Part shown: one piece after another, positions 54 through 50,893 of the stretch
Layout: every line of letters starts with the position of its first letter
Numbering within the stretch: position 1 is the first letter of the stretch
Assembly (NCBI GenBank): GCA_016219645.1
Contig: JACRLR010000067.1
Span: forward strand, 62,001-126,000
Origin: Nitrospirota bacterium
GTDB taxonomy: Bacteria; Nitrospirota; Nitrospiria; Nitrospirales; Nitrospiraceae
Length of the DNA: 64,000 nucleotides
Direction of reading: 5' to 3'
The notes under the pieces: generated by a model
The model's input: only the letters and a program-made list of their open reading frames with translations
Told to the model about the DNA's origin: nothing
Databases searched by the model: none
Program-made: the position numbers and the translations under genes

Positions 54-272
54 GGAGGCTGCTGAAAAAGAAAGGAAAGGGTAGCCTGGTCGTCCTCCTG
101 CTCGCGGAACGCGCACGCTCGGAAGGTGCTCGTTCGACGCACGCAATCGAGGATCAACCAGGCTACCCTTTTGAGAGCGAGTACTAAAATGCTGCGGCCT
201 TGCTTGGGAAAGTCGCGTCTCGGCGCGCCAGGGTTGGGCGGGTGAGAAGGTTGGCCTTTTTGAGCAGCCTGC
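54..272. repeat. MITE-like dispersed element with internal hairpin
   Basis: The element is bounded by inverted repeats AGGCTGCTGAAAAAG (56-70) and CTTTTTGAGCAGCCT (256-270), which pair except at one position. Inside is a hairpin (76-171) with 15-bp arms AAAGGGTAGCCTGGT and its complement around the conserved core GCTCGCGGAACGCGCACG...GCTCGTTCGACGCACGCA. Next to the right end is the family motif GGCGCGCCAGGGTTGGGCGGGTG-like block. It closely resembles the element at 17286-17504. No protein is encoded. Confidence 0.8.
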
Positions 273-8972: not shown

Positions 8973-8975
8973 AGT

Positions 8976-9186
8976 GCGGCTTCTGAAAAATGCCTCCAGC
9001 GGCGTTCTCGGTCGTGCGAACTCCTCAACGTACCAATCGAGACTCTTGGAGAGTCGGACGCACTGGAGGGGTTTTTCCGTTCGCCAAGATTCAGTGTACG
9101 GGCGAACGGCCCCACGAAGTGCGGTCGGTACCTCCTCCGGGTTCGCACTCCCTGCGGCCTTTCTGGAGACATTTTTGAGAAGCCGC
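8976..9186. repeat. MITE-like element with TGAAAAA/TTTTTGA ends
   Basis: The ends GCGGCTTCTGAAAAATG (8976-8992) and CATTTTTGAGAAGCCGC (9170-9186) pair over 17 bases, apart from the same single mismatch seen in the other copies. The interior shares CCAGCGGCGTTCTCGG and CTGCGGCCTT with the element at 19921. It carries no coding potential and sits between two minus-strand genes. Confidence 0.8.
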
Positions 9187-9200
9187 AGGGAGTTTGTTTG

Positions 9201-10261: not shown

Positions 10262-12367
<2,106 letters not shown>

Positions 12368-12539
12368 TTCGACGGTGGATCGTATCGCCCGCCCATCTCG
12401 TTGTCAACGGGGTATTGGACCTATCGTAGGTGAACCGACCGAACTATCGAGGGGTAGGACTTCCTTTCAGGGCCGCTTCATTGATTGTCGGGGTACCCTA
12501 ACGTAGAATGATGCCAGACGCCATTTTCCTGAGGAACGA

Positions 12540-13643
12540 ATGCCGATAGTCTCGACACTTCCCAAACCGATCACGGACTACCAGCGATTGTCTGCGGAGG
12601 AACTGTTCCGCCGGACGGCTGAAGCGAAACGCCTGTTGGGTGAGAGGGTTATGATCCTCGGTCATAACTATCAACGGGATGAAGTCATCGAACATGCCGA
12701 TTTTCGCGGGGACTCTCTCCTCCTCTCAAAGCTGGCAGCCGAGCGATCAGAGCGGCCCTACATCGTTTTTTGCGGCGTGCATTTCATGGCCGAGACGGCA
12801 GATATCCTGAGCCGCTCCAAACAAACGGTCATCCTTCCGGACATGGCCGCAGGCTGTTCTATGGCAGACATGGCGGCCATCGAGCAGGTCGATCACTGCT
12901 GGGAAACCCTGGGACGGATTCTCCCGGTGGAAGAGACGGTCATGCCGGCGGTCTACGTCAACTCTGCCGCGGTACTGAAAGCTTTTTGCGGCGAACACGG
13001 AGGGATTACCTGTACCTCATCCAACGCCAAGGCGGTGATTGACTGGTCTTGGGCAAGGAGGGAGAAGATCCTCTTTTTCCCGGACGAGCATCTGGGCCGC
13101 AATACGGCGAACAAGATGGGTCTGGCTAAAGAAGAGATGATTGTCTGGGACCCCTTTCAACTCAATGGGGGCAATACGCGCGGAGCGATCCAGCGGGCCA
13201 AGTTGATTCTCTGGAAAGGTCACTGCAGTGTTCACCAGATGTTCCAGCCGGTCCACGTGGACAACTTCCGGAAGCAATATCCGGAGGGGAAAGTCATCGT
13301 TCATCCTGAATGTCATGAAGATGTCGTCAACAAGGCGGACCTTTCCGGTTCGACGGAGTTCATCATCAAGACTGTGACGGCAGCTCCAGTCGGTACGGCC
13401 TGGGCGGTTGGGACAGAACTCAATCTCGTCAACCGTCTCAAGCGTGACCTGACCGATAAGAAAGTCTTTTTCCTGTCGTCTACTGTCTGCCAGTGCGCGA
13501 CGATGTTCCGGATTGATGGAGCCCATCTCTGTTGGGCGATGGAGAACCTTGTCGACGGCCATGTCGTGAACCACATCGTCGTTCCGGACGATGAGAAACA
13601 TTGGGCCAGGGTTGCGCTGGACCGCATGATGTCCGTCAGTTAG
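12540..13643 (+). CDS. nadA: Quinolinate synthase
   Basis: Condenses iminoaspartate with dihydroxyacetone phosphate to quinolinate in de novo NAD synthesis, using a [4Fe-4S] cluster. Family motifs seen: MILGHNYQRDEVIEHADFRGDS near the N-terminus, VFCGVHFMAETADIL, LPDMAAGCSMADM, GITCTSSNA, VHPECHEDVV and a late STVCQCATMFRI. Cysteines in the CGVHF, HPEC and CQC segments fit the cluster ligands. At 367 residues it is of the longer NadA type. GAGGAA precedes the ATG. Its stop codon abuts a repeat element, so it is probably monocistronic. Confidence 0.96.
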   Translation: MPIVSTLPKPITDYQRLSAEELFRRTAEAKRLLGERVMILGHNYQRDEVIEHADFRGDSLLLSKLAAERSERPYIVFCGVHFMAETADILSRSKQTVILPDMAAGCSMADMAAIEQVDHCWETLGRILPVEETVMPAVYVNSAAVLKAFCGEHGGITCTSSNAKAVIDWSWARREKILFFPDEHLGRNTANKMGLAKEEMIVWDPFQLNGGNTRGAIQRAKLILWKGHCSVHQMFQPVHVDNFRKQYPEGKVIVHPECHEDVVNKADLSGSTEFIIKTVTAAPVGTAWAVGTELNLVNRLKRDLTDKKVFFLSSTVCQCATMFRIDGAHLCWAMENLVDGHVVNHIVVPDDEKHWARVALDRMMSVS

Positions 13644-13854
13644 CAGGATCGTGAAAAACGGCTTAATTCCACCCGCCCAGCCCCGGCGCGCCGTGACGCG
13701 CCCTTTCCCGGGCATCGTTCTCGTGTCGCTCCCATGCTCAACGTACCGCTCGGGATAGAGCTGTTCTGACTGCTCGGGGCGGGCGGGTGTGAAGGGTACG
13801 CCTCGCATATTCGCTCGCTGCGGCCTTGCTGGAAGACGTTTTTGACGATCCTGC
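13643..13854. repeat. MITE-like element after nadA
   Basis: GCAGGATCGTGAAAAACG (13643-13660) and CGTTTTTGACGATCCTGC (13837-13854) pair over 18 bases with only the family-typical mismatch. It begins on the last base of the nadA stop codon. The interior has CACCCGCCCAGCCCCGGCGCGCC and a pair of inverted CTCGGG/CCCGAG words. The remaining stretch to 13951 holds the ileS leader, with no obvious promoter. Confidence 0.85.
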
Positions 13855-13951
13855 ATCAAGGCTAAGGGCTGGTGCCTCGCCTGTCATTCCGGTATATTCC
13901 TACCCTTGATCCAATCACATTCTAAGATTTCCGTGAGAGACCAGACAGGTC

Positions 13952-16765
13952 ATGGATTATAAGGCTACGCTCAATCTTCCCAAGACCGATTTCCCCATGA
14001 AGGCGAACCTTCCGCAACGGGAGCCTGAGCTCCTGGCCTTGTGGGAGCGTGAAGGCTTGTACGAACAGATTCAGGCAGCGGGGAAAGGCAAACCTCGGTA
14101 CATCTTGCACGATGGACCGCCTTATGCGAATGGCCGCATCCATATCGGCCACGCGTTGAACAAGATCCTCAAGGACATCATCATCAAGTCGAAGACGATG
14201 GCGGGCTACCAGGTGCCTTATGTGCCAGGGTGGGACTGCCACGGCCTTCCGATCGAACATCAAGTCCTCAAAGAACTCGGCGACAAGAAGAAGACGCTCG
14301 ATACTCCGGCCATCCGCCACCTCTGTCGGGAGTATGCGGAGAAGTACGTCAAGATTCAGCGGGAAGAATTCAAGCGGCTCGGTATCTTGGGCGATTGGCA
14401 GAACCCCTATCTCACGATGAATCCCGGTTATGAGGCGACGATCATCCGTGAATTCGGGAAATTCGTGGAGCGGGGAGGCGTCTATAAGGGGCTGAAGCCC
14501 GTGCTCTGGTGCACGGCAGATCAAACAGCTCTTGCTGAGGCGGAGGTGGAATACGACGATCACACCTCTCCTTCAATCTATGTGAAGTTTCCGTTGGTCA
14601 CGTCGCCCACGGTGCTCAGCAAGACCTTCCCTGGCATTTCGTTCCCTGCCGGCATCAAGTCGGTCTCCGTCGTGATTTGGACGACGACGCCTTGGACTCT
14701 CCCGGCCAATCAAGCGGTCTGCCTCCATGGCGAGATCAATTATGCATTCGTCCAGGTCGGTGACGAAGTATTGATCGTTGCGGAGAAGCTTCTGGAGAGC
14801 GTAACGAAGGTCTGCAAGCTCGATGGGGCTCGCCTGTTCGGAGTGAAAAAGGGAAAAGAGGGGTTTGAGGGGATGGAGACGCAACGACCCCTGACCACCG
14901 GTTTATCGCCTATTCTGCTTGGGGATTTTGTGACCCTCGACCAGGGTACCGGCTGTGTCCACATTGCCCCTGGTCACGGCATGGAAGACTACATCCTCGT
15001 TCTTGAGCACAATGCCAAGGCTACGCCAGGGGAACGGTTGGAAATTCTGGCGCCGGTCGACAACGCCGGGCGGTTTACTGACGTGGTGAAAGAGTTTGCC
15101 GGCCAGCACGTGTTGAAGGCAAACCCAAAGATTGTGGAGTTTCTACAGGCCAACGGGCGATTGTTGGGCCAAGGGTCGTTGAACCACTCCTATCCGCACT
15201 GCTGGCGCTGCAAGAATCCTGTCATCTTCCGTGCGACAGAACAGTGGTTCGTGTCGATGGAGACGAATGAGCTTCGGAAAGAAGCTCTGGCAGAGATCGA
15301 TCGAGTCCGCTGGATTCCGGCCTACGGTCGGGATCGAATCAATGGGATGATCCAGAACCGCCCAGATTGGTGTCTGTCGCGTCAGCGTGTGTGGGGCGTA
15401 CCGATTCCCGGTTTCACCTGCGTCGGGTGCCGGTCTGTGCTGGTTGATACGACCGTGATCGAACACCTTGCGACGATGCTCGAGTCTAGAGGCGCCGATA
15501 TGTGGTTTGAGCAGTCGACTGCCGACCTGTTGCCCGGAGGCACGACCTGTTCGACGTGCGGCGGAACGGTATTCGAGAAAGAGCGAGACATTCTCGACGT
15601 GTGGTTCGAGTCGGGCGTCAGCTACGCTGCTGTCTTGAAAGAACGGAAATGGTGGCCGGCCGATCTCTACCTAGAAGGATCGGATCAACATCGGGGCTGG
15701 TTCCACAGCGCCTTGTTGGCCGGTGTCGTCACGGATCATCGCGCGCCATACGAGGCGGTCCTGACTCACGGTTTTGTTCTCGACGGGCAGGGGAAGAAGA
15801 TGTCCAAGTCGGCCGGGAATGTCGTCGCGCCGCAGGATGTGATCAAACAATCGGGTGCAGAAATTCTGCGTTTGTGGGTCTCGGCGCAGGATTATCGCGA
15901 TGACCTCAGGATTTCTCCTGAAATCCTGACCCATATGATCGAGGCCTATCGAAAGATTCGGAACACCGCTCGTTTTCTGTTGAGCAATCTATACGACTTT
16001 GATCCTGAAAAAGACCGAATCCCGCACGAGCAGCTGCCTGAGTTGGATCGTTGGGCTCTGCATCGGCTCAGCGAGCTGATCCTTCGGGTTCGGAAGTCCT
16101 ATGAGGATTTTGAATTCCACACGATTTTCCACGCCCTCAACAACTTCTGTTCAGTAGATCTGAGCGCGGTCTACCTCGATATCCTGAAGGATCGTCTCTA
16201 CACGTTCCGAGCAGATTCACCCTTGCGTCGAGGATCGCAGACGGTACTCTTCGAGATCGTCGTTGCCATGACGAAGCTGGTGGCGCCGGTGCTGAGCTTT
16301 ACGGCCGAGGAGATCTGGCGGACGTTGGTGACGCAGGTGGGCGGACGTCTCGGAGTGAGCAGCGTTCATCTGAGCGAATTTCCTGAGGTCCAACCCCGAT
16401 GGCAGGATACCGCGCTGGCTCAGCGATGGGAACGGTTATTGGCCTATCGTACCCAGGTGCAAGGTGTGTTGGAGGGAAGCCGGCGTGATAAGACTATTGG
16501 ATCTTCGTTGGAGGCGACGGTGCGTCTTCAAGCCGATGCCGACACCTACGAGTTCCTTGATCCCTACCGGAAGGACCTGACCACGCTCTTTATCGTCTCG
16601 CAGGTCGCACTGGTCGCCAGCAGTGAGGGGAAAGTCCCTCTGGTGATTACGGCGACAGGGTCTTCATTCGGAAAATGCGAGCGCTGTTGGAACTATCGTG
16701 AGGCGGTGGGGAAAAGCACGACCTTTCCGACCCTCTGCGATCGTTGCATTGAGGCGGTGCAGTGA
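13952..16765 (+). CDS. ileS: Isoleucyl-tRNA synthetase
   Basis: Charges tRNA-Ile in the cytosol. The 937-residue protein shows the class I signature HIGHALNKIL near residue 64 and KMSKSAGN near 614, the editing domain between them (TTTPWTLPANQA, GTGCVHIAPGHG), the anticodon-binding domain, and a C-terminal zinc finger with paired CERCW and CDRC cysteines. Length and zinc finger match the bacterial type I enzyme. It is followed by lspA with a one-base TGATG overlap, a common ileS-lspA operon arrangement. Confidence 0.98.
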   Translation: MDYKATLNLPKTDFPMKANLPQREPELLALWEREGLYEQIQAAGKGKPRYILHDGPPYANGRIHIGHALNKILKDIIIKSKTMAGYQVPYVPGWDCHGLPIEHQVLKELGDKKKTLDTPAIRHLCREYAEKYVKIQREEFKRLGILGDWQNPYLTMNPGYEATIIREFGKFVERGGVYKGLKPVLWCTADQTALAEAEVEYDDHTSPSIYVKFPLVTSPTVLSKTFPGISFPAGIKSVSVVIWTTTPWTLPANQAVCLHGEINYAFVQVGDEVLIVAEKLLESVTKVCKLDGARLFGVKKGKEGFEGMETQRPLTTGLSPILLGDFVTLDQGTGCVHIAPGHGMEDYILVLEHNAKATPGERLEILAPVDNAGRFTDVVKEFAGQHVLKANPKIVEFLQANGRLLGQGSLNHSYPHCWRCKNPVIFRATEQWFVSMETNELRKEALAEIDRVRWIPAYGRDRINGMIQNRPDWCLSRQRVWGVPIPGFTCVGCRSVLVDTTVIEHLATMLESRGADMWFEQSTADLLPGGTTCSTCGGTVFEKERDILDVWFESGVSYAAVLKERKWWPADLYLEGSDQHRGWFHSALLAGVVTDHRAPYEAVLTHGFVLDGQGKKMSKSAGNVVAPQDVIKQSGAEILRLWVSAQDYRDDLRISPEILTHMIEAYRKIRNTARFLLSNLYDFDPEKDRIPHEQLPELDRWALHRLSELILRVRKSYEDFEFHTIFHALNNFCSVDLSAVYLDILKDRLYTFRADSPLRRGSQTVLFEIVVAMTKLVAPVLSFTAEEIWRTLVTQVGGRLGVSSVHLSEFPEVQPRWQDTALAQRWERLLAYRTQVQGVLEGSRRDKTIGSSLEATVRLQADADTYEFLDPYRKDLTTLFIVSQVALVASSEGKVPLVITATGSSFGKCERCWNYREAVGKSTTFPTLCDRCIEAVQ

Positions 16766-17286
16766 TGAGCGGTCCCGTTCGCTATCTGCTCTTGGCGCTG
16801 CTCAGTGGGGTGATCGTCGCGATCGATCAGGCAACGAAGCTGTCCATCATGCAGTCGATGCGACTGAACGAATCCATTCCGATTATCCCCAATCTCTTCA
16901 GCCTGACCTATATCCGCAACCCCGGTGCGGCATTTGGGTTGCTGGCCGGCAGCAGCGATGCCTTTCGCATGGTGTTCTTTGGGATCACGTCGCTTTTTGC
17001 TCTGGCCCTACTGGGAACGATCCTCTTCCGGCTCCCGCAGAAAGATTGGAAGGGGCAGCTCAGTATTGCCGGGATCCTTGGAGGGGCGATCGGGAACCTG
17101 ATCGATCGGTTACGATATGGCGAGGTGATCGATTTTCTCGATGTCTATGTGGATACATACCATTGGCCGGCCTTCAACGTTGCCGATTCTGCAATCAGCG
17201 TGGGGGTGGTCTTCTTGATCATCCACTTTGCCTTTGAGAAGAAGGATGTGCCGCTCGCCACCCATGAATCTCCCCCAGCTTCCTAG
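16765..17286 (+). CDS. lspA: Lipoprotein signal peptidase (SPase II)
   Basis: Inner-membrane aspartyl peptidase that removes signal peptides from lipoproteins. It has four hydrophobic segments and the catalytic motifs GNLIDRLRYGEVIDFLDV and FNVADSAISVG, which supply the two active-site Asp residues. The ATG at 16765 overlaps the ileS stop (TGATG); a GTG at 16762 is the alternative. Substrates within this window probably include the lipoproteins at 2384, 19153 and 38365. The repeat element at 17286 starts on the last base of its stop codon. Confidence 0.96.
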   Translation: MSGPVRYLLLALLSGVIVAIDQATKLSIMQSMRLNESIPIIPNLFSLTYIRNPGAAFGLLAGSSDAFRMVFFGITSLFALALLGTILFRLPQKDWKGQLSIAGILGGAIGNLIDRLRYGEVIDFLDVYVDTYHWPAFNVADSAISVGVVFLIIHFAFEKKDVPLATHESPPAS

Positions 17287-17504
17287 CAGGATGCTGAAAA
17301 AGGAAGGAACGGGTAGCCTGGTCGTCCTCCTGCTCGCGGAACGCGCACGCTCAGAAGGTGCTCGTTCGACGCGCGCAATCGAGGAGCGACCAGGCCACCC
17401 TTTAGAGATAGTGTGAAAAACCGCTGCGGCCTTGCCTGCGGAACGGCGCGTCTTGGCGCGCCGGGGTTGGGTGGTGTGAAGTCTGGCCTTTTTGAGCATC
17501 CTGC
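17286..17504. repeat. MITE-like element with internal hairpin
   Basis: Terminal arms GCAGGATGCTGAAAAAGG (17286-17303) and CCTTTTTGAGCATCCTGC (17487-17504). The internal hairpin (17311-17400) has arms GGGTAGCCTGGTCGTCC and its near complement, around core CTCGCGGAACGCGCACG...CTCGTTCGACGCGCGCA. It is very similar to the element at 54-272, but its outer arms differ while still pairing with each other. Confidence 0.88.
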
Positions 17505-17529: not shown

Positions 17530-17799
17530 CTATGTCGAGAGGGTGATGATAAACCCGCCCTGCTCACGGAATTGCCGTTGCTGTTCGGAGGAAAACATCA
17601 CAAGCGGTTCGGTGTGGCAGAACTGACATTCCTTGACCGTCACCGGTACGTTGGCTTCCCCAATACTCGCCAAGTGTTTTTTGGCGAGTGTCAGTGCCGT
17701 CGCCTCATCTGTCGTCATCACGTCGAAATGCAACAGTCCCTTTGTCCCTCTGACCCAGGTGTCGAAGACATGTACCGTATCGGATTGAGATTGAGCCAT
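17530..17799 (-). CDS. DUF2024 family protein
   Basis: An 89-residue protein with the DUF2024 pattern: VHVFDTWVRGTKGLLHFDVM at the N-terminus, a central helix, then VKECQFCHTE and a final GGFIITL strand. The family is small, soluble and of unknown function. The CxxC pair in ECQFCH is conserved in family members as I recall them. The start at 17799 has AGGAGG about 8 bases upstream. It lies 14 bases after uppP and is probably co-transcribed with it. Confidence 0.8.
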   Translation of the reverse strand: MAQSQSDTVHVFDTWVRGTKGLLHFDVMTTDEATALTLAKKHLASIGEANVPVTVKECQFCHTEPLVMFSSEQQRQFREQGGFIITLST

Positions 17800-19854: not shown

Positions 19855-19878
19855 TCGGACCATAGCCCGGCAAGCCTG

Positions 19879-19918
19879 ACAGGCCGTCCGCCATTCGGCG
19901 GACGGCCTGTTCGTTTTT
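19879..19918 (+). terminator. Rho-independent terminator
   Basis: ACAGGCCGTCCGCC (19879-19892) pairs perfectly with GGCGGACGGCCTGT (19897-19910) around a 4-base loop and is followed by TCGTTTTT. It ends the lipoprotein transcript. Confidence 0.95.
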
Positions 19919-49916: not shown

Positions 49917-50570
49917 ATGGAGAAACCGTTCACGAATATCTCGATCGAGATCTATTCCGATGTCATTTGCCCTTGGTGCTATGTTGGGAAACGTCGGCTT
50001 GAACGGGCATTGGGTCAATTAAGAGATAGGGCACAGGCGCAGATCGACTGGCGACCCTTTCAGTTGAATCCGACGATGCCGCTCGATGGAATCGATCGGA
50101 CCGCCTATCTGAAGGCCAAGTTCGGGAGCTTGGAGAATTTTGGGCGGATGAAAGAGCAGCTCCTCGCTGCCGGCGAAGAGGATGAGCTTCCCTTTGCCTT
50201 CGACAAGATTCAACGTACACCAAACACCTTTGCAGCCCATCGGCTGGTCTGGTATGCAGCGCAGCAGGGGAAACAGGACCAAGTGGTGGAGGCGCTCTTT
50301 TGTGCGTATTTTCTCGAAGGTAAGAACATCGGTGACGTGAAGACCCTTGTGCGCGTCGCTGGCGAAGCCGGATTGGATCGAACAGAAACAGAACATTTTC
50401 TGGCAAGCGACAACGGCACGGTTGAGGTCGAGGGTGAAGAAGCAGTGGGTCGTCGGCTGGGTATCCGAGGAGTACCCTACTTTGTCTTCAACGGCCGTAT
50501 ATCAATCTCTGGAGCTCAACCTCCGGATATCATTGTGTCTGCCATTCAGCAGGCGGAGAAAGAAATCTAG
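49917..50570 (+). CDS. FrnE-like DsbA-family oxidoreductase
   Basis: A 217-residue thioredoxin-fold protein of the DsbA/FrnE (2-hydroxychromene isomerase-like) group: ISIEIYSDVICPWCYVGKRRLERAL with a CPWC active site, a helical insertion, and GIRGVPYFVFNGRISISGAQPPD with the cis-Pro. No signal peptide, so it acts in the cytosol. Family members have been tied to stress tolerance and polyketide oxidation. Confidence 0.92.
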   Translation: MEKPFTNISIEIYSDVICPWCYVGKRRLERALGQLRDRAQAQIDWRPFQLNPTMPLDGIDRTAYLKAKFGSLENFGRMKEQLLAAGEEDELPFAFDKIQRTPNTFAAHRLVWYAAQQGKQDQVVEALFCAYFLEGKNIGDVKTLVRVAGEAGLDRTETEHFLASDNGTVEVEGEEAVGRRLGIRGVPYFVFNGRISISGAQPPDIIVSAIQQAEKEI

Positions 50571-50638
50571 CAGGCCATGGAAGAACACAGCCTTAGACAG
50601 CACGCTATTTTCTATTGGTGCCGATCTCGACATAGCTG

Positions 50639-50876
50639 CAGGCTGTTCAAAAAGACCGTCCAGCAAGGCCGCAGGCGGAGCAAGAACCAGAGGCGTACCC
50701 TCAGGGGCGCACGGTGCGACGAATAAGGAGCACCATGTCTGTGCGCGCCGCCGAGTCGGTGAGGCGGCCGGGTCCCCGTTGAGGATTCTTGCGAGCTAAG
50801 AACGATGCATGGGGAAAAGCGCGTCTTGGCGCGCCGGGGTTGGGCGGGTGAGAAGAGCAGCTTTTTCAACAGCCTG
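50639..50876 (-). repeat. MITE-like element, inverted orientation
   Basis: Arms GCAGGCTGTTCAAAAAG (50639-50655) and CTTTTTCAACAGCCTG (50861-50876) pair perfectly over 16 bases. The interior carries GGCGCGCCGGGGTTGGGCGGGTG (in words), GAGGCGTACCC and GCGCACGGTGCGACGAATAAGG, the last shared with the element at 10021. Confidence 0.85.
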
Positions 50877-50893
50877 TTAGAAAAGGAAGGAGC

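Follow-up and report, generated by a model that had tools for sequence, protein, structure and literature searches.

The hairpin elements dispersed through this Nitrospira genome are very probably MITEs of an IS5-family insertion sequence, one of which seems to have been retained downstream of nadA as a structured 3'-end RNA. The elements are about 200 bp long and have no coding capacity and no transposase inside. Target duplications and an empty site show that the element is mobile, and the identity of its TIRs with those of complete insertion sequences suggests that it was moved by a DDE enzyme of the IS5 family. The copies described here lie in a stretch of 64,000 nucleotides of contig JACRLR010000067.1 (positions 62,001 to 126,000; hereafter the window) and are listed in Table 1.

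A preliminary description of this DNA had claimed that the outer arms of the larger elements differ and yet pair in each of them. All five arm pairs that it named were located in the window, each of them paired, with arm sequences that differ between elements in step. The claimed fixed position of the TGAAAA/TTTTGA mismatch is also borne out, as TGAAAAA/TTTTTGA with its single G·G mismatch occurs at the same place in each of the five. The elements are more numerous than expected by chance: a scan of 81 loci (1.65 Mb) for two 9-nt arms flanking TGANAAA...TTTNTGA recovered 84 paired hairpin elements, compared with 0 in block-shuffled sequence, although these regions had been picked partly for containing matches and their density does not extrapolate to the genome. 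The unbiased figures are those for the whole genome (3.65 Mb), where the pattern has 91 exact matches and 113 with up to two mismatches (controls, 0-1). In an arm-blind test on 84 copies chosen by their inner sequence alone, without use of the arms, 586 of 672 arm cells were paired (permutation mean, 493; maximum, 525). The notion that each element has private arms needs qualification, because private but paired arms do exist but form a minority, whereas most copies have one of a few arm sequences in common (CAGGATGC, CAGGCTGT, CAGGCTGC). The commonest are CAGGATGC, which defines class 1, and CAGGCTGT in combination with TGA(C/T/G)AAA...TTTCTGA, which defines class 2. In another family of the same order, one genome (G099) has 52 matches to the left-end pattern, compared with 0-3 in the other sampled members of its family, which suggests that the element was acquired separately.

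The TTTTTGA arm, which had been taken for the end of the larger elements, is internal. The left flank of the hairpin is conserved as YTAR and the right flank is not conserved; past the hairpin, full-length copies share another ~75 bp, and this segment terminates with the left end in inverted form. The left TIR reads CAGG(A/C)TG(C/T)TGANAAAG, and the right end reads ...GTTTTTCCGCAGCCTG in class 1 and ...GTTTGTCAACACCCTG in class 2, in both cases followed by CTAG. The distance of the right TIR is fixed, its start peaking 60 bp past the hairpin. A full copy of about 200 bp comprises the left TIR, a long imperfect palindrome at the end of which the left TIR is repeated in inverted orientation (the internal arm), and the ~75 bp that close with the right TIR. 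The internal arm tracks the left TIR and not the right one. A clear right TIR is missing from many copies of class 1, among them four of the five in the window. An early scan of the flanks found no target duplication next to the internal arm, because this arm is not the end of the element.

Among 18 copies with YTAR at both ends, 15 have identical tetranucleotides (CTAG, CTAA, or TTAG) on the two sides, compared with 6.9 expected (p = 7e-5); the right-TIR threshold had been tightened for this count because accepting any right-TIR-like match admits too many false ends. At one locus (L052), the filled site reads CTTCAGCCTAA-element-CTAAATACC, and the empty site of a relative (L314) reads CTTCAGCCTATACACC with a single 4-mer, that is, CTTCAGC-CTAA-element-CTAA-ATACC versus CTTCAGC-CTAT-ACACC. 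Orthologues of the lspA site with full copies show the same duplication (CTAG/CTAG in L207, CTAA/CTAA in L222). YTAR is the target site of the IS5 group. The contrast that had been drawn with mobile elements of fixed ends is not supported, because full-length copies combine near-constant TIRs with a 4-bp YTAR duplication. A fixed-length target duplication with constant ends, named in the preliminary description as evidence against its reading, is what the full-length copies, with their near-constant ends, display, and an empty site and matching IS5-family insertion sequences are found in addition.

Table 1. Hairpin elements, their parts, and target-site copies in the window
Feature	Position	Strand	Remarks
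Hairpin element, arms AGGCTGC/GCAGCCT	56-270	+	interior modules shared with related elements
Hairpin element, diverged but paired arms GCGGCTTC/GAAGCCGC	8975-9187	+	related to other hairpins in the window
nadA-downstream element, arms GCAGGATCG/CGATCCTGC	13643-13854	+	
Left target-site copy TTAG at nadA	13640-13643	+	contains stop codon TAG (13641-13643) of nadA ORF 12540-13643
MITE-derived hairpin after nadA	13644-13853	+	fold z = -5.6; covarying orthologues
Left arm of nadA hairpin	13644-13651	+	TGAAAAA at 13652-13658
Internal inverted arm of nadA hairpin, CGATCCTG	13846-13853	+	TTTTTGA at 13839-13845; interior long, palindromic
Right target-site remnant TAAG at nadA	13863-13866	+	9 bp past hairpin; from comparison with empty sites
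lspA-downstream element, arms GCAGGATGC/GCATCCTGC	17286-17504	+	
Left target-site copy CTAG at lspA	17283-17286	+	contains stop codon TAG (17284-17286); filled orthologous sites CTAG/CTAG, CTAA/CTAA
MITE hairpin after lspA	17287-17503	+	left TIR CAGGATGCTGAAAAA, internal arm TTTTTGAGCATCCTG; fold z = -5.9
Right target-site remnant CTAT at lspA	17530-17533	+	from alignment with L207, L210, L215, L222
Nearly full-length MITE, arms CAGGCTGT/ACAGCCTG	50567-50880	-	hairpin 50877-50638
Left target-site copy CTAA of this MITE	50880-50877	-	
Right target-site copy CTAG of this MITE	50570-50567	-	
Right end ...GGCCTG of this MITE		-	about 67 bp past hairpin

The nadA copy in this genome lacks the right segment of ~75 bp. 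At lspA, erosion has reduced the right segment with its TIR to ...CCAG followed by CTAT; in four orthologues (L207, L210, L215, L222), the right TIR is still there and is followed by YTAR and then by GTCGAGAG or a close variant of it. Both single-copy folds are more stable than those of shuffled sequences (Table 1), and the interior of the lspA hairpin contains other palindromic modules. In the lspA-downstream orthologues (L203-L222), the insertion site is the same and the palindromic interior differs by species, being of the type GTTCTCGC...GGTACGCC, TTTGGTTTGTTTGG (with tandem expansion in L209), or CTCGCGGAACGCGCAC, as if interiors had been swapped or nested. A degenerate copy from 19923 to about 20064 of the window has its left TIR on CTGG, a canonical interior, and a right-TIR remnant (TTTTTCCGCAG); a strong terminator-like hairpin (19878-19911) lies just upstream of it.

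A search of relatives with PF01609 identified a complete insertion sequence (L138) of 1,327 bp including the duplications, in which a 366-aa transposase gene lies between CAGGCTGCGGAAAAAC and GTTTTTCCGCAGCCTG, with CTAG on either side. The class-1 MITEs have exactly this sequence (CAGGCTGCGGAAAAAC/GTTTTTCCGCAGCCTG) as their right TIR. Related transposases are present in 25 of the 101 genomes searched, and those that belong to complete insertion sequences come with TIRs of this type and YTAR, as in G059, G042, G060, G033, and G031. Two copies in G031 (L150 and L171) carry the TIR CAGGCTGTTGACAAAC, which is matched by the class-2 TIR TTGACAAAC. All four representative transposases score above the cut-off of PF01609, and three of them match NCBIfam NF033581 (IS5) with 236-281 bits (cut-off, 140); the transposase of L150, which is of the class-2 type, falls just under the NF033581 cut-off, being slightly short of the curated cut-offs of both IS5_4 and IS1182. 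No match to the partner transposase was found in the genome under study, which leaves two options for its MITEs: they are orphans, or the enzyme was once provided in trans. An IS701/DDE_5 partner was rejected, as there was no match in the 20 genus members searched.

The mechanism that best fits these similarities would be a cut-and-paste transposition into YTAR sites by a DDE transposase supplied in trans, with the left TIR and the internal arm folding into the hairpin. The difference in arms between class 1 and class 2 may reflect two transposase lineages that the left TIR has followed, the internal arm having changed with it.

It is very doubtful that the elements are instead REPs or REPINs moved by a RAYT (a Y1, IS200-like enzyme), with YTAR in place of the GTAG head. 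Such an origin would agree with the fixed mismatch and with the conservation of a tetranucleotide at the hairpin's 5' foot, and a search for RAYT or IS200-type enzymes, as suggested in the preliminary description, revealed a single Y1 transposase gene in this genome (G000:C20:51681-52004; L021, L022; 313 aa, IS200-like), which has one MITE copy as a neighbor at a distance of about 80 bp. This gene, however, has an element copy on one side only and is flanked by different inverted repeats of its own (TTCTTGACTTTGCAC), which are almost unique in the sampled DNA. No Y1 match was detected in the near-complete relatives G001, G004, G008, G010, and G017, each with 33-84 matches to the element pattern. 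Because the elements also possess TIRs and a 4-bp duplication, so that the tetranucleotide recurs at the right end, the Y1 enzyme was rejected as partner and the REP/REPIN reading is largely refuted.

The site preference of an IS5-type MITE has a consequence for the neighboring genes. YTAR contains TAR, a stop codon; many target sites are therefore stops, and the gene keeps its stop upon insertion. In 29 of 84 copies, among them the nadA and lspA copies of the window, the left target site terminates a frame of 100 codons or more; of all YTAR sites in this DNA, whether intergenic or not, 9.3% do so. In another Nitrospira (L309), a class-2 element has independently inserted on the nadA stop codon, which makes it possible that this codon is a hot spot.

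The copy between nadA and ileS is present in most members of the genus searched and in many named Nitrospira genomes. Genomes named Nitrospira or Nitrospiraceae are close to the one under study in NadA protein (up to 96% identity). It is absent from Nitrospira moscoviensis, and empty sites in other Nitrospira read ...GTTAGGGCTGG or GTTAGGACTGG. The arms of the orthologues vary in concert, from GGGATCG/CGATCCC to GGGAGCG/CGCTCCC, AGGATGG/CCATCCT, and GAAATCG/CGATTTC, and include GGGGTCG/CGATTTT, which has four consecutive G-U pairs; G-U wobble affects pairs 2-5 of A2. Among 30 distinct sequences, 94.6% of the cells are paired, compared with at most 43% for slid partners. Both sides have changed in 13 pairs (7.0 in shuffles) and in 49 cells (14.9 in shuffles; reached in 0 of 500), some of the covarying cells being shared by descent. 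The internal helices covary too (C-G:16 / G-C:12 at columns 48-78). The structure of the nadA hairpin has been kept through compensatory changes across the genus; covariation in the outer arms, a check proposed in the preliminary description, extends to G-U changes and exceeds that in shuffles. The proposal that the elements are folding RNA or single-stranded DNA is supported insofar as the nadA arms covary like those of a folding RNA, but the elements themselves are very probably IS5-type MITEs with near-constant ends.

It is unlikely, if less so than the other alternatives, that the arms of the same IS5-family MITE are functionless and were re-matched after insertion by gene conversion or by strand-switching (quasi-palindrome-templated) repair. 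Long imperfect palindromes such as these arms are a known substrate of templated correction, which would also account for the exact match on both sides of some private arms. Simple correction of a palindrome, however, should erase the G-G mismatch, which is kept in most copies (it is lost in L266 and L284), and it would not favor the G-U wobble pairs of the orthologous arms. Moreover, many other copies erode, whereas much of the genus still has the one at nadA.

A role of the hairpin at the DNA level, where the left TIR and the internal arm would pair as a cruciform or single-stranded hairpin and thereby regulate transposition (e.g., by masking the left TIR), is less probable still. It would be consistent with an internal arm that follows the left rather than the right TIR and with an internal arm that is perhaps usable as an end, but leaves the G-U pairs and the compensatory changes in an immobile, vertically inherited nadA copy unexplained. 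A hairpin-only copy of about 125 bp (L068, about 15170-15318, plus strand) has CTAA on both sides, which suggests that the internal arm can act as a right end.

Least credible of all is the view that the regions of nadA-ileS or lspA have a conserved cis-regulatory RNA that is not mobile: it would explain the covariation at nadA, but as a general account it is refuted by the dispersal of some 100 copies, by their TIRs and target duplications, and by an empty site. Nor do the elements have a match in Rfam; the sole match in that search was a TPP riboswitch elsewhere in the window (RF00059, 72.5 bits; 12272-12374, minus strand), upstream of a thiC-like ORF (10262-12235, minus strand).

The hairpin at nadA, kept in one old MITE copy by compensatory change, most likely works as RNA, giving the mRNA a structured 3' end that serves as terminator or stabilizer. 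A TATATT-like motif between hairpin and ileS, conserved in filled and empty sites, suggests that the hairpin belongs after nadA and is not part of an ileS leader. The hairpins were not flagged by a simple terminator scan; a GC-rich inner stem is followed by a T tract that is itself still within the stem and does not come directly after it.

Members of the genus Nitrospira are major nitrite oxidizers and complete ammonia oxidizers, and for their element the data now give the precise termini, a likely enzyme partner, and a target preference by which genes are spared, as YTAR contains a stop codon. Somewhat short of an even chance is a wider scenario in which an IS5-family MITE with a third TIR copy seeds hairpin 3' ends on stop codons, at least one insertion (nadA) was domesticated as a selected structured RNA throughout the genus, and transposition has repeatedly supplied mRNA 3'-end structures. 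As the nadA insertion is datable and its hairpin is kept by compensatory mutation, the supply of bacterial mRNA 3'-end structures by transposons becomes testable.

In the open-access papers searched, neither these elements nor any MITE was found described for Nitrospira. The SPRITE of Streptococcus pneumoniae is likewise dispersed and may act as a terminator (PMC10969869), but it differs in sequence and host, and the relation is by analogy only. REP and REPIN elements with their RAYTs resemble the Nitrospira element in their many intergenic copies and in their hairpins, which likewise have a mismatch at a fixed place and a conserved tetranucleotide at the foot. However, TIRs and larger target duplications are missing from RAYT elements, and the RAYT gene itself lies between two inverted REPs (PMC2817692), whereas the Nitrospira element combines TIRs with a 4-bp duplication and probably has a DDE enzyme as its partner. 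ERIC, Correia/NEMIS, and RUP, which are hairpin-forming MITEs of bacteria, are also intergenic elements of roughly 100-200 bp that form long stem-loops as RNA, and ERIC and Correia affect neighboring mRNAs (PMC2229807, PMC10969869). They differ in their TA termini (YTAR in Nitrospira) and transposase family, and in that their two termini pair with each other, whereas the left end of the Nitrospira element pairs with an internal arm. The closest resemblance is to IS5-family insertion sequences and their MITEs, with which the element shares the 4-bp YTAR duplication, TIRs common to complete insertion sequences of 1.3 kb, and a transposase of the NF033581/PF01609 type. It departs from them in that no transposase match is present in this genome and in that the left TIR occurs a third time, inverted and internal, which turns two-thirds of the MITE into a hairpin.
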